This document shows, one piece after another, positions 6,972-35,423 of a DNA stretch of 64,000 nucleotides. Source of the stretch: Candidatus Ornithomonoglobus merdipullorum (GTDB taxonomy: Bacteria > Bacillota > Clostridia > UBA1381); NCBI GenBank assembly GCA_018714695.1, contig DVNB01000083.1:1-64000 (forward strand). The letters are read 5' to 3'. The position numbers and the translations under genes were made by a program. Numbering within the stretch: position 1 is the first letter of the stretch; every line of letters starts with the position of its first letter. The notes beneath the pieces are model-generated. The model was not told the DNA's origin. It worked only from the letters and a program-made list of their open reading frames with translations, and ran no database searches.

Positions 6972-7835
6972 TTAAGCCTTGCCGATCGAGCCGAACAGCT
7001 CCATCTTTTCTTTAACTATAGCCTTTATGCCCTCATATCCGGGTGCGAGAAGCTTTCTCGGATCATAGCCCTTGCCCTGGAGATCCTTGCCCTCTTCGAT
7101 ATATTTTCTTGTTGCCTCCTGGAAATAGAGCTGGCATTCTGTGTTTACATTGATCTTTGCAACGCCGAGCGATATAGCCTTCTTTATCATATCAGCCGGG
7201 ATTCCTGTGCCGCCGTGGAGAACGAGCGGAAGATCGCCTATGAGTTCCTTGATCTTTGCAAGAGCATCAAAATCGAGTCCCTTCCAGTTCTCGGGATACT
7301 TGCCGTGGATGTTTCCGATGCCTGCAGCAAGGAAATCAACGCCGAGATCGGCTATCATCTTGCACTCGGCAGGATCAGCAATCTCGCCCGCGCCTACAAC
7401 GCCGTCCTCTTCGCCGCCGATCGAGCCTACCTCAGCCTCGATCGAAAGACCCATGTTGTGAGCCGCGTGAACGAGCTCGGTCGTCTTTGCTATATTTTCA
7501 TCAATGGGGAAATGCGAGCCGTCAAACATGATCGATGAGAATCCGGCTTTTATGCACTTGTAGCATCCCTCATATGTTCCGTGATCAAGATGAAGAGCGA
7601 CAGGAACTGTAATGCCGAGCGATTCTATCATGGCCTTTACCATTGCAGCGACCGTGCCGAAGCCGGTCATGTACTTGCCTGCGCCTTCTGAAACACCGAG
7701 GATCACAGGTGAATTGTTCTCCTGCGCGGTAAGAAGTATAGCCTTTGTCCATTCAAGATTGTTGATGTTGAACTGACCTATGGCATAATGGCCTTCAACC
7801 GCCTTCTTTAGCATTTCTGTAGCTGTTACCAACAT
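6972..7835 (-). CDS. fba: Class II fructose-bisphosphate aldolase
   Basis: HLDHGTYEGC, FDGSHFPIDEN, VLHGGTGIP, KINVNTECQ motifs. Confidence 0.95.
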   Translation of the reverse strand: MLVTATEMLKKAVEGHYAIGQFNINNLEWTKAILLTAQENNSPVILGVSEGAGKYMTGFGTVAAMVKAMIESLGITVPVALHLDHGTYEGCYKCIKAGFSSIMFDGSHFPIDENIAKTTELVHAAHNMGLSIEAEVGSIGGEEDGVVGAGEIADPAECKMIADLGVDFLAAGIGNIHGKYPENWKGLDFDALAKIKELIGDLPLVLHGGTGIPADMIKKAISLGVAKINVNTECQLYFQEATRKYIEEGKDLQGKGYDPRKLLAPGYEGIKAIVKEKMELFGSIGKA

Positions 7836-29407: not shown

Positions 29408-30679
29408 ATGACGCAGGAAGAATTGATAAACGTTTTAATAGTATTTTCGCATACCTTTCTTGGGGCGTATGTAATGATGTTTACAGAGTTCCGTGAACCC
29501 CGGCGTGTATGGAGACTGCGTTGGGCTGTGACGGCAGAGCTTGATATAGCGGCGAATGGATTGCTGTGTGCTGTCATAGGCAGGGATATATGGATGTACT
29601 GCGCGGTATTCACGCTGACCATACCAATCATTATTATTACTGTTTTCTGTTCTCTGCATAAAGGTCTGCGTGTAGTATTCAGTGTATGTACTTGTCTTTG
29701 GGTAGGATGTGTGGCGTTTTCGTGTTCGGAGACAGCATATTGGCTTTCAGGAGGCAATTTATGGATCAGGCTTGCGGTTCACGTAGCGGCATATGTGGCA
29801 CTGTATTTTGTCCTGTGCCGTTTCCGTCCGTATTATAAAAGGATGGTGCGCCTGCTTGATCACGGATGGAGCGTTCTGTGTATGATCCCGACTGTTACCT
29901 TTTTAGTTGCCTTGTATATAATAAATTTCCTGTTGACAGAAAAAACGATGATATCAGTCATTGCGATATGTGGCATAACGATCATCTGTACCTGTGCATA
30001 TAGTCTTATCTATTTGTTTTTTGTCAAGGTGTTGGATGACTATGAGCTGAAAACCAGCAGTGATCTTGCCGAAGTAAGACGTTTTGCGCTTGAGCGCCAG
30101 CTTGAAGAAACCAGAGAGGCTGAGAATCTGATGCGTGTACAGCGCCGTGATATGAGCTGTCGCTGGATGATGCTTTCGAGTTTTGTGGAAAAAAATGATA
30201 CTAGTGCGATAGCAGAGCTTATCGGCGGGGCACAAAAGAAGCTTGATGAATCCGTATCGGTGGTTTGGTGTAAAAATCAGATGCTGAATGCAACTGTAGC
30301 TGCTTATTTTACAAAGGCAAAACGTGAGGGAATAACCGTTGAAGCAAAATTAGATATTCCTGACGATATACCGGTAGATGCGGCAGAATTATCGATGGTG
30401 TTTGCGAACGCCCTTGAAAATGCAATTAATGCCTGTACACTGCTGCCGCCGGGAAAGCGTAAGATCATATGTAAATGTGTAGAATATCCTAGGTTTATGC
30501 TGAAGGTGGAGAACACTTACAACGGTAAAGTGAGGTTTGGCAGTGACGGGCTGCCGCTGTCTTCGGAAGACGGGCATGGCATCGGAACACGTTCAATAGC
30601 GGCGTTTTGTAAAAAATACGATGCCTCATGGAGCTATGATGCTTCGGACGGGTGGTTTACATTGAGAATAGCGTTTTAA
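29408..30679 (+). CDS. GHKL sensor kinase-like membrane protein with degenerate H-box (His to Arg)
   Basis: Multi-TM N-terminus, MRVQRRDMSCRW, ATPase region NALENAINAC and GHGIGTRSI. Confidence 0.8.
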   Translation: MTQEELINVLIVFSHTFLGAYVMMFTEFREPRRVWRLRWAVTAELDIAANGLLCAVIGRDIWMYCAVFTLTIPIIIITVFCSLHKGLRVVFSVCTCLWVGCVAFSCSETAYWLSGGNLWIRLAVHVAAYVALYFVLCRFRPYYKRMVRLLDHGWSVLCMIPTVTFLVALYIINFLLTEKTMISVIAICGITIICTCAYSLIYLFFVKVLDDYELKTSSDLAEVRRFALERQLEETREAENLMRVQRRDMSCRWMMLSSFVEKNDTSAIAELIGGAQKKLDESVSVVWCKNQMLNATVAAYFTKAKREGITVEAKLDIPDDIPVDAAELSMVFANALENAINACTLLPPGKRKIICKCVEYPRFMLKVENTYNGKVRFGSDGLPLSSEDGHGIGTRSIAAFCKKYDASWSYDASDGWFTLRIAF

Positions 30680-30762: not shown

Positions 30763-31629
30763 ATGGTATACAATAATTATATGAATGCGCTGATGGTGCT
30801 TTTAACGCAGATGTTTCTCGGCAGTTATGTCTTGATGCTGACGGAGTTTAGGGAACCTGTGCGTATATGGAGATCTATTTGGACAGCTGTCATCGTTTCG
30901 GTGGTGTGCATAAATATTCTATTGATATTGTTTTTTGATTTTTTGGATATTTATAAACGAGTTGGGATATTGACGGTCACGCTTCCGTATGTTTTGATGA
31001 CCTTGCTGTGTTCACGCTATAAGGGGCTTCGGGTCGTATTTAATATATGCACATGCCTTTGGATCGGATGCATAGGGAATGCCAACGGTATAGCGGCTCA
31101 TGCACTGATGCCGGAAAATGTTTGGATAAATGTAGCAGCACGCAGTGCTTCATATTTTGTGCTGTATTTTGTGGTAAGATTTTTTAAACCGTATTACAGT
31201 CAAATGCTTCAGCTTTTGGATAAAGGGTGGGGCACATTATGCCTGATCCCTTTTACTACTTTTATATTGACTCTTTGCATGATAAATAATCTTCTTCAGG
31301 AGGAGCCTCTGGCTGCGTCTGTAATTATTTATGGGATCATGATATTATGCACATGCTCATACATTCTCATATATCTGTTCTTTATGAGGGTATTGCAGGA
31401 ATATGAGCTTAAAAACAGCCGTGAACTGATCAACGTTCAAATAGCAGCGCTTGAACGTCAGTCGGAATCAAATCGGGAGATCAATGAGAAAATGCGTATA
31501 CAGCGTCATGATATGCGCCATCAATGGATAACTGTATCAGCTTTGATAGAGAATGGCGACAAGCGGGCTGTATTGGAATTCATCGATACTGTGCAGAGAC
31601 AGCTCAATGGCATTGATCAGGAGCAATAA
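30763..31629 (+). CDS. Paralogous sensor kinase with intact H-box but no ATPase domain
   Basis: Multi-TM N-terminus paralogous to the preceding gene, QRHDMRHQW, stop after DTVQRQLNGIDQEQ. Confidence 0.8.
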   Translation: MVYNNYMNALMVLLTQMFLGSYVLMLTEFREPVRIWRSIWTAVIVSVVCINILLILFFDFLDIYKRVGILTVTLPYVLMTLLCSRYKGLRVVFNICTCLWIGCIGNANGIAAHALMPENVWINVAARSASYFVLYFVVRFFKPYYSQMLQLLDKGWGTLCLIPFTTFILTLCMINNLLQEEPLAASVIIYGIMILCTCSYILIYLFFMRVLQEYELKNSRELINVQIAALERQSESNREINEKMRIQRHDMRHQWITVSALIENGDKRAVLEFIDTVQRQLNGIDQEQ

Positions 31630-31781: not shown

Positions 31782-32507
31782 CTATTCTTCCATCCAATAA
31801 TCCATCCATTTGTTCAGAATATCATTTCGTGCGCCTTTTGGTATTGCCAATGATTTTTCATTGGTCAATATCAGCTCTTTTTTGCCTACCTTTTTTATAT
31901 AATGGAGATTGATCAGGAAGCTTGAGCCGAGCATAATGAAATTGTCTCTTTCAAGCAATTCACCGACCGCTTTTTGAAATGATATCCTAAGTTTCTGGCT
32001 GTCAACAACGGTTTCGTTTATCAGATTGTACCGTACAGACCGCTCGTAAAGCTCAGCGTAAAGGATATCGGATATGTTTATGACAACTGTGCCGTCGGAT
32101 GTATTTACGGTTATCGAATGTGCTTTAAGCCGCGCGGTAAGTATCTCCGCCTGTTTTATAGCCGAAAACAATTTTTCTTTTTCGACAGGCTTTACAAGAT
32201 AATGAAGAGCATGTACACTGTAGGATTCAACAGCGTAGTCTTTTGAGCTTGTAAGGTAGATAATGGGCGCGCAAACGTCCATGCCGCGAAGCTGCAGTCC
32301 AAGCTCTATTCCGGAAAGCTCAGGCATGATCACATCAAGTATGTAAAGATCGAATAGTTCTTTTCCGCTCCATTCGACACGGTCAAGCAGCATTTGGCTG
32401 TTTGTAAACACAGTTAAATTTACGTCAGTTTTGAAATACTCCAAAATATATTCCTTGATTTTGTCAATTTGATCGACGTCATCATCACATAAAGCAATTT
32501 TCAGCAT
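31782..32507 (-). CDS. LytTR-family (AgrA/LytR-like) response regulator
   Basis: Receiver domain CDDD, YILDVIMPELSGIEL, K in VKP; C-terminal LytTR DNA-binding region. Confidence 0.9.
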   Translation of the reverse strand: MLKIALCDDDVDQIDKIKEYILEYFKTDVNLTVFTNSQMLLDRVEWSGKELFDLYILDVIMPELSGIELGLQLRGMDVCAPIIYLTSSKDYAVESYSVHALHYLVKPVEKEKLFSAIKQAEILTARLKAHSITVNTSDGTVVINISDILYAELYERSVRYNLINETVVDSQKLRISFQKAVGELLERDNFIMLGSSFLINLHYIKKVGKKELILTNEKSLAIPKGARNDILNKWMDYWMEE

Positions 32508-32585
32508 AGCATCATCTCCTGTATAATAATCAATCTTAATTATATCAGAAAAGTATGAAATAATCAACTTTAATATTTTTATAAA

Positions 32586-32615
32586 TCGTCACAAAAAGAA
32601 CCTGAATTGTCACAA
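32586..32615 (+). promoter_or_regulatory. Candidate LytTR operator (9-bp direct repeats, 12-bp spacer)
   Basis: TCGTCACAA (32586-32594), 12 bp, TTGTCACAA (32607-32615), just upstream of TACAAT (32643-32648). Confidence 0.6.
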
Positions 32616-32735
32616 TATCTTATAAAATGAGAATTTTTATGTTACAATAGAATAAAGATATTTTTAATATAGACATATTTCCAACCGCGGATGGATCGAC
32701 ACCGTGTATCGGATAAAAGAGGAGATGAAAAGCGT

Positions 32736-35423
32736 ATGAAATGGACAAAGTTTTTCAAGAATACAGTGAGTATCGCGGCAGCGGCGGCAGCGCTTTTTAC
32801 GGCAATTGCGCTCCCATCCCCGAACCGCGCTGCGGCTGCCGGGGAAGATCAGGTTTCAGATTTACCAACAAAGCTTATGAACGGTGATTTTGAATGGCCG
32901 AATATTGACACGGCGTTGGAGAAGGCTAGTATAGATGCAAACAGCAGCGGAACCACGAGCGGAACGTATCGCGGAACGTATCGCGATTATTCGATATCAA
33001 ATAATGATACCGAGGATACGGATATCATTTTCAGACGGCACCGCATTAGCTCGGGCGGGTGGTGGAATCCGACATATACCAATTATGATGATCCGTGGTT
33101 CGTGACCACGCGTTCTATATATGACGATATTTCTTCCGATCAATCCTCGGATCACGATAAACGCGAGTTTTACTGGAAGACTACCGCGTCAGATGACAGG
33201 ATAGAGCTTGCGGCGGCACGAGATATACGATCTTGGGATGGTGGTAGCACAGTAGGTTATTTCAGAGACGGGAACACTGAAACGAGGACGAATGAGGCGG
33301 CAAGCGGCGGTCAGTTCGCGGAGCTTGTGGCTACAGAACAGTCTTCGCTTTACCAGACCATACAGACTGCCGAGGACAATGTTCTCACATGGAGGCTTGA
33401 TCACCGTGCCAGAACCAGTACAGGAGGCATGGATTCCATGGCGGTGTTCATCGGTCCTAAACAGGACGGACTGAAAAAAGCGAGTGAGTCCGCGCAGGAT
33501 GTATTCAGCGCAATGGTCGATCTGATCAGAGAAAATCCCGGAGAGACAACGCAGCCGGGGATGTCGGTGGCGGCAAGAAAGATCTATTCGGCAAAAATAA
33601 GTGACGGTATGAAAATAACAGATGCCGATGTCAGCAATAATAAAACCGATCACTGCGATCAGGAATGGACCTGCTGGATAATAACGAGTGATGACATGTC
33701 GTGGCAGGAGTACAGCGGTACTTATAAAGTGCCGGAGGGACAGAACGCAACTACATTTGCTTTTGCGGCGCTTAACAGAGCTGCCGCCAATCCTGAAGGA
33801 AACTGTCTTGATAACATTGTGTTCGGAATACAGTATCCGCTTACTGTTACAGCAACAGCAGGCGGGACCGGCACCGTATCCGGCGGCGGCATTTCAAATG
33901 CTGAGGTCTCACACGGCAATGCGTATAACGGAAGCGCAAATGAGGGCGAAACCGTTACAATAACAGCGAGACCTAATGATGCTAATCACAAATTTGTCGG
34001 CGCGACGGTTAACGGCAATTATGTCAGGATAGGAGAAAACGGATTCGTTCAGCAGCAGGATGGTTCGTACACGTATCAGCTGACAATGGATGGAGCCAAA
34101 AATGTCGAGCTGATATTCGCCTCCGTTGGCTATGTCACATATGATCTTAACGGCGGAACCTGGGATAGCGATATCCAAACTTCATACGAACTGGATAGCT
34201 TGCTAAATAACGATTTTGAGCAGAAAAATGAGCCCGAACTGACGGGCAGTAGATTCCTTCACTGGGAGGTGTACGCGGCAAACGGCACGGACTCGTTAAA
34301 TGGTAAAGTATATACTCCCCATACAATAACGTATACGGTGGATGAGGGTGACTGGTGGAATCCATGGGATGATGATACGCATACGTTCACGATCACCGAC
34401 AGCAGCGGAGAAAAGGTTATTGAGATAGAAGACGGTGCTGACGAGTATGCGATAGTGCTTCGCGCGGTATATACTCACACTGTAGACGCCGTATCCTGCA
34501 CGAAATATTTCGCCTCAAACGATGCTAATCATAAAGATGCCACGGGAGGCTCGGTCACGATCAAAAAAAATACTGACACGACCTCAAATACCGATACGGG
34601 ATCTATATCGGTAGAAAACGGTGATTCATTCACGGTAACGGCAACGCCGAACGAAGGGTTTGAGGTTGATTCATGGTGGTATTCATATATTGATGACAAT
34701 GAAAACGAGGTGCTCGAGTTGATACCTGACGCTTCCGGCGATTCATACACAGCAACGTATAACGGGAGCCGAAATGTAACGATACATGCTCAGTTTGCGG
34801 AATTGCCCATAGGTCCGTATCTGTCTGTGGTAGCAGAGAACGAAGAGACACGGAAACAGCTTGATGAAAAGGGTATAGAGTCAGAGCATGGTCATGTTAA
34901 AGGAAACGGATCAGACACGCCTGTGAGTAAGCTTTACGGCGGTGAGAAATACGGCAATACGATCTCTACCGGATTTTTTGCAAAACGCAAGTTTGAAGGT
35001 GCCACTGTTGATCTCAGCGGTACATGGTCGATAAATATTCCTGCGAACGGGACATATTTCAAGATAGCTGTTGAAGATGTAAATAGTTATGAGCATATAA
35101 ATAAAACGCCCGTATTGGGTGATGATAAGGCGGAATACAACAGCGGCGCGATCTATAAAGCGGCTGATAATACAGAAAACAATTATAATAGGCAGGTGCA
35201 ATTCTACGTTGATGGTCCTACGGTCAGCGGAAATTCTGAGATCATCTTCGGGATAATAGTCGATAACCTTTACGCCCCGAATGCGCAGGCAGGTTTCAGG
35301 CTTGGAGATAATACAGCGGGACTTGGCGAGCTCAACGAGAGCAATTCAGTTACAGTGACCGAGCAAAATAAATATGATCCGACAGCGCTTGACAATTTGT
35401 CGGATACGCAAACTATAGACTAA
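32736..35423 (+). CDS. Large secreted protein with jelly-roll-like N-terminus and bacterial repeat domains
   Basis: Signal peptide, LMNGDFEWPN start, TVTATAGGTGTVSGGG / ETVTITARPNDANHKFVGATVNG repeat segments. Confidence 0.7.
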   Translation: MKWTKFFKNTVSIAAAAAALFTAIALPSPNRAAAAGEDQVSDLPTKLMNGDFEWPNIDTALEKASIDANSSGTTSGTYRGTYRDYSISNNDTEDTDIIFRRHRISSGGWWNPTYTNYDDPWFVTTRSIYDDISSDQSSDHDKREFYWKTTASDDRIELAAARDIRSWDGGSTVGYFRDGNTETRTNEAASGGQFAELVATEQSSLYQTIQTAEDNVLTWRLDHRARTSTGGMDSMAVFIGPKQDGLKKASESAQDVFSAMVDLIRENPGETTQPGMSVAARKIYSAKISDGMKITDADVSNNKTDHCDQEWTCWIITSDDMSWQEYSGTYKVPEGQNATTFAFAALNRAAANPEGNCLDNIVFGIQYPLTVTATAGGTGTVSGGGISNAEVSHGNAYNGSANEGETVTITARPNDANHKFVGATVNGNYVRIGENGFVQQQDGSYTYQLTMDGAKNVELIFASVGYVTYDLNGGTWDSDIQTSYELDSLLNNDFEQKNEPELTGSRFLHWEVYAANGTDSLNGKVYTPHTITYTVDEGDWWNPWDDDTHTFTITDSSGEKVIEIEDGADEYAIVLRAVYTHTVDAVSCTKYFASNDANHKDATGGSVTIKKNTDTTSNTDTGSISVENGDSFTVTATPNEGFEVDSWWYSYIDDNENEVLELIPDASGDSYTATYNGSRNVTIHAQFAELPIGPYLSVVAENEETRKQLDEKGIESEHGHVKGNGSDTPVSKLYGGEKYGNTISTGFFAKRKFEGATVDLSGTWSINIPANGTYFKIAVEDVNSYEHINKTPVLGDDKAEYNSGAIYKAADNTENNYNRQVQFYVDGPTVSGNSEIIFGIIVDNLYAPNAQAGFRLGDNTAGLGELNESNSVTVTEQNKYDPTALDNLSDTQTID

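Follow-up and report, generated by a model that had tools for sequence, protein, structure and literature searches.

A probable operator with atypical half-sites between a LytTR response regulator gene and a divergent exported-protein gene in Candidatus Ornithomonoglobus merdipullorum

Two 9-bp direct repeats lie between a gene for a response regulator with a LytTR domain and a divergent gene for an exported protein in Candidatus Ornithomonoglobus merdipullorum, within the 64,000-nucleotide stretch analysed here (the window). Comparison with relatives makes it quite likely that these repeats are the operator of the adjacent regulator, a dimer of which would activate the divergent promoter and probably also act on its own gene, through half-sites whose letters lie outside the published LytTR consensus. 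The features concerned are as follows.

29408..30679, + strand: HK1, a GHKL sensor kinase homologue with an ATPase domain and RRDMSCRW in place of the RHDxRHx H-box
30763..31629, + strand: HK2, a truncated sensor kinase homologue with an intact RHDMRHQW H-box and without the ATPase domain
31782..32507, - strand: response regulator with a LytTR domain (Pfam), 241 amino acids, the putative binder of the repeats
32539..32547, - strand: extended -10 TGATATAAT of the regulator's own promoter
32562..32567, - strand: -35 TTGATT of the regulator's own promoter (TTGATTAT is invariant in four aligned orthologues)
32586..32594, + strand: half-site 1, TCGTCACAA, distal to the divergent promoter and proximal to the regulator's promoter
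32595..32606, no strand: 12-bp spacer between the half-sites, poorly conserved (8/12 against the orthologous locus L039)
32607..32615, + strand: half-site 2, TTGTCACAA, proximal to the divergent promoter
32620..32625, + strand: -35 position of the divergent promoter, TTATAA, poor
32640..32648, + strand: extended -10 TGTTACAAT of the divergent promoter, the best extended -10 among 65 positions
32736..35423, + strand: divergent exported protein, 895 amino acids, with a signal peptide, the proposed main target

The regulator has the receiver and LytTR domains expected of a LytTR-type response regulator (Pfam Response_reg, 2.2e-15; LytTR, 2.1e-7; both above the gathering cut-offs). Its AlphaFold model has a mean pLDDT of 87.5, and the best PDB match of that model over its whole length was full-length ComE (4cbv; Foldseek), with 19% identity over the alignment. 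The matches listed for it by VIA-align were all to the receiver domain, which took up the whole list, and the LytTR fold was judged from Foldseek and Pfam. Receiver residues D8, D9, D58, T86 and K106 were invariant in all 13 subfamily members compared. The LytTR regulatory systems (LRS) are defined by a stand-alone LytTR protein together with a small membrane inhibitor; this regulator carries a receiver domain and is not followed by a membrane gene on the same strand.

The two half-sites are exactly 12 bp apart with a 21-bp period, as the first-pass annotation had described, and agree at 8/9 positions, or at 10/11 when the longer direct repeat is taken. Two repeats of about 9 bp, about 12 bp apart, are characteristic of LytTR operators; published systems have 9-bp repeats 12 bp apart, placed 4-11 bp before the -35 in Streptococcus mutans (PMC6193735). 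Here the pair lies just upstream of both -35 positions, at 4 bp from the divergent one (about 5 bp in the first-pass annotation) and at 18 bp from that of the regulator. TTATAA, 17 bp upstream of TACAAT (32643-32648), had been called a poor -35, which is confirmed; the -10 also proved to be of the extended kind, with an upstream TG (TGT-TACAAT), and is located 32 bp from the repeat core. The promoter of the regulator gene comes near the consensus and likewise has an extended -10. The exported protein and its L039 counterpart gave a weak Divergent InlB B-repeat match, just under the model cut-off, and their genes have the RBS and start position in common. No RNA element was found in the window with Rfam.

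The relation of the repeats to the divergent promoter became apparent across the wider subfamily. Forty-seven distinct upstream regions of regulator homologues were taken, and 22 of them contained a clear repeat pair 20-22 bp apart with differing letters (TGTGAC in the window, TGTGAA, TGCGAA, CACTAA, CATGAA, CTGAAC and others); this proportion with a usable pair was counted against the operator reading. Distant subfamily members (30-47% identity) also had repeats of 20-22-bp period, with other letters, upstream of the regulator. Period-21 repeats occurred in 10 of 41 homologue upstream regions against 0.40 expected, with other offsets near background. Among unrelated LytTR paralogues of the related genomes just 3/60 had an offset-21 repeat, and such a repeat was therefore rejected as a property of all LytTR genes. 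With repeat anchors set by hand from autocorrelation hits, 11 of 16 distinct intergenic clusters had their best divergent-side extended -10 at 31-35 bp from the repeat core; 2000 trials with random anchors averaged 1.3 such clusters and never gave more than 6. None of 22 homologous promoters had a divergent -35 with more than 3/6 matches to TTGACA. Because this distance is held in most clusters whereas the regulator-side -10 distance depends on the clade (46, 31-32, or none in range), we conclude that the divergent promoter is the likely conserved target of the repeats, in agreement with the first-pass expectation that the gene at 32736 would be regulated.

Most distant members are regulator-kinase operons facing a divergent exported-protein gene. 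The divergent proteins of L198, L200 and L204 carry SLH and Listeria-Bacteroides repeats, that of L199 is ricin-lectin-like, and others are lipoproteins or large signal-peptide proteins (signal peptides were called by a simple hydropathy rule and inspection). SLH or Listeria-Bacteroides-repeat surface proteins are the typical divergent partners. Two local variations were seen. By eye, L134 and L135 have three to four CATGAA-type half-sites in tandem upstream of the regulator, in 21-22-bp steps, rather than two. In L203 (G657; regulator at 7287), where the next sizeable ORF is codirectional, a perfect divergent extended -10, TGTTATAAT, is nevertheless spaced from the repeats as in the rest of the family; it might drive a divergent transcript that is short or non-coding.

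Five regulator orthologues were found in the genomes searched (G008/L039, 85% identity; G070, 64%; L040/G127, 64%; L042/G030, 61%; L041/G340, 60%). The repeats are kept in three of these other species, L039, G070 and L041 (60-85% regulator identity). Between the window and L039 the half-sites are identical at 17/18 positions (half-site 1 at 8/9, half-site 2 at 9/9), whereas the spacer agrees at 8/12 and the leader of the secreted-protein gene at 59/88. In G070 and L041 the equivalent of half-site 2 is TTTGTCACA and half-site 1 is also matched, while the flanking letters have changed. Equivalent repeats were not found upstream of the regulator in L040/L205 and L042 (61-64% identity), which counts against the operator reading. 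The large SLH/Flg_new gene of L205 is convergent with the regulator and runs off the contig, so that its promoter is not readable. Two further observations concern these orthologues: an arginine-to-lysine change near the regulator C-terminus was seen by eye only in L040/L205 and L042, and upstream of the L205 regulator (7918; the same sequence as L040), where the direct repeats are absent, there is a 10-bp perfect inverted repeat, TCGATGGTAT ... ATACCATCGA.

In the direction of the regulator, the spacing GTGA-21-GTGA-25-TTGATT-23-TATAAT is identical in the window, L039 and G070, with 20-24-23 in L041; the regulator's -10 is 46 bp from the repeat core in the first three and 45 bp in L041. In G070 there is no divergent gene, the gene upstream being codirectional with the regulator, and still neither the repeats nor their distance from the regulator's promoter has changed. 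In L041 the divergent gene encodes a GGDEF protein rather than a surface protein. Both cases were counted against a divergent surface-protein target. In the G070 locus L109 (about 560-580), this codirectional gene, which is acyltransferase-like, has its stop codon within the first half-site, so that the coding end overlaps the operator. Because the repeats are fixed relative to the regulator's promoter even where no divergent gene exists, the regulator gene is proposed as a second target, and in the clade of the window these repeats probably also mediate autoregulation. The first-pass view of an operator of the divergent promoter is retained, though it had overlooked the regulator's own promoter as this probable second target.

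That the repeats serve the regulator's own promoter alone, leaving the divergent secreted-protein gene outside their control, was our first reading; it draws on the identical spacing from the repeats through TTGATTAT to TATAAT in three species and on G070 without a divergent gene. It was dropped after the test of divergent-side -10 geometry and is now considered improbable, since distant members conserve the divergent distance of 31-35 bp while the regulator side differs by clade, and since the divergent promoters are without a -35. Repression by the bound regulator in place of activation, whether of the divergent promoter or of its own, is likewise unlikely. The near-consensus extended -10 promoter of the regulator may need no activation, and PMC2714321 describes PlnD as a repressor acting through the same repeat type as the activator PlnC; on both sides, however, the repeats are upstream of the -35 and not over the core promoter, and a defective -35 such as the divergent one is the usual sign of activation. 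The preferred reading is still that the adjacent regulator would activate the divergent promoter.

LytTR domains contact DNA through strands and loops, not through a recognition helix, and we know of no recognition code for them. The AgrA half-site letters were used in the consensus comparison. On either strand, the half-sites of the window (TTGTCACAA / TTGTGACAA) are off the published LytTR consensus (e.g. ACCACTTAT, ACAGTTAAG; LRS table, PMC6193735). LytTR domains carry an FhRhHRS signature, which in AgrA reads FFRCHNS, with R198, N201 and S202 at the DNA and H200 implicated (PMC4227749). Where FhRhHRS is expected, the window regulator has FIMLGSS and thus departs from the DNA-contact signature, as do its orthologues (FMMIGSS, FMMLGSS or FIMLGSS). 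In the sister clade the signature ends in GKS, GAG or SQS, relatives with TGCGAA-, CACTAA- or GCGCAA-type repeats have GKS, GSS or GAG, and CATGAA-type relatives keep HRS. The repeat length and spacing given in the first-pass annotation as those of LytTR operators hold, while the letters and the signature, which that annotation did not take up, depart from the LytTR norm. The signature varies in step with the half-site letters and with the promoter spacing (31-32 against 34-35 bp); this is a correlation among two or three clades and not proof of a code. The half-site letters probably differ from those of other LytTR operators owing to the loss of FhRhHRS in this clade.

These unusual letters, together with the two orthologues without repeats, speak for the alternative that an unrelated regulator binds here. 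Each half-site is near-palindromic (TTGTnACAA), so that the strand on which it is read cannot be told from the window alone. Such a binder is nevertheless very unlikely: the repeats follow the regulator gene into genomes with another divergent gene or none, their letters and their spacing to the promoter differ from one LytTR clade to another, and the genome has no second copy of the pair. The genome-wide motif scan proposed in the first-pass annotation was run on all 2.65 Mb, and the window pair was the sole match at fewer than three mismatches. Matches with three mismatches numbered 16 (both strands, the site itself counted) against 8 for the reversed-pattern control, which is near the control level, and no further copy was convincing. 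When the 228-bp intergenic region was shuffled with its dinucleotides kept, a repeat of at least 8/9 at offset 21 arose in 4.4% of the shuffles and one of at least 10/11 in 0.7%; by these statistics the window pair taken singly is weak evidence, only suggestive, and it is conservation in relatives together with the subfamily-wide offset-21 signal that establishes it. Chance similarity in AT-rich intergenic DNA, which the 4.4% figure might favour, is scarcely credible given conservation in four species and the period-21 signal of the subfamily.

Under the proposed operator function, a phosphorylated regulator dimer would bind both half-sites, which are two helical turns apart, from the same face of the DNA. 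It would bring RNA polymerase to a divergent promoter that has an extended -10 and no usable -35, so switching on the secreted repeat protein; the geometry comes from the comparison, while the activation is inferred. The same bound dimer would stand about 58 bp upstream of the regulator's start site, as placed from its -10, with autoregulation as the probable outcome. Phosphorylation may be supplied by the nearby kinases, which are convergent to the regulator. HK1 is without the H-box histidine and HK2 stops before the ATPase domain, where distant relatives have one intact kinase. Since these states are shared with L039, with dN/dS of 0.17 (HK1) and 0.22 (HK2), the two look like working, complementary halves of a split kinase; HK1 is a possible input partner of the regulator, and HK2 a possible phospho-acceptor partner of HK1. 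We suggest, as somewhat less likely than not, that the subclade without FhRhHRS may read another half-site (TGTGAC/TGTGAA type) at a promoter spacing of 31-32 rather than 34-35 bp, forming a natural series from which a LytTR recognition code might be read, and that in the window's genus this regulator may be fed by a naturally split sensor kinase, with the ATPase domain on one protein and the phospho-acceptor histidine on the other.

ComE of Streptococcus pneumoniae, a LytTR regulator of direct repeats, is the closest solved full-length structure (4cbv) to this regulator; it differs in its 19% identity, its competence output and its half-site letters. As here, the HdrRM and BrsRM systems of S. 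mutans have 9-bp direct repeats with a 12-bp spacer just upstream of the promoter, and they autoregulate, which is likely here too (PMC6193735). They differ in their half-sites (ACCnCTTAn) and in a regulator paired with a membrane inhibitor (PMC6193735), compared with the receiver-domain response regulator, TTGTCACAA half-sites and divergent exported-protein promoter of the window. The agr P2-P3 region of Staphylococcus aureus with AgrA is similar in its LytTR response regulator, direct repeats centred near -60 and divergent promoters (PMC4227749), and its autoregulation with an output transcript (PMC4227749) is counted as a further likeness, predicted here. Each agr promoter has its own repeat set and AgrA carries FFRCHNS, whereas one pair is shared here and the signature is FIMLGSS; no AgrB or AgrD was seen by inspection among the ORFs flanking the regulator. 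The operator may work like those of AgrA, ComE and the S. mutans regulators, apart from its half-site letters and the FhRhHRS signature. Its first-pass assignment to the LytTR type finds support in the regulator's domains, the ComE match and the conserved distance to a divergent -10 without a -35. No paper on this regulator/surface-protein module was found in the open-licence literature.

Many gut Clostridia have this arrangement of repeats and promoter, although the letters differ. It points to a subfamily-wide module in which a LytTR response regulator, usually with a kinase, faces a divergent SLH or Listeria-Bacteroides-repeat surface protein, with a putative operator at fixed geometry between the two genes. 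A direct way into the LytTR recognition code is offered by relatives whose contact residues covary with the half-site letters and the spacing to the promoter, and the module predicts when uncultured gut Clostridia switch on their surface proteins.
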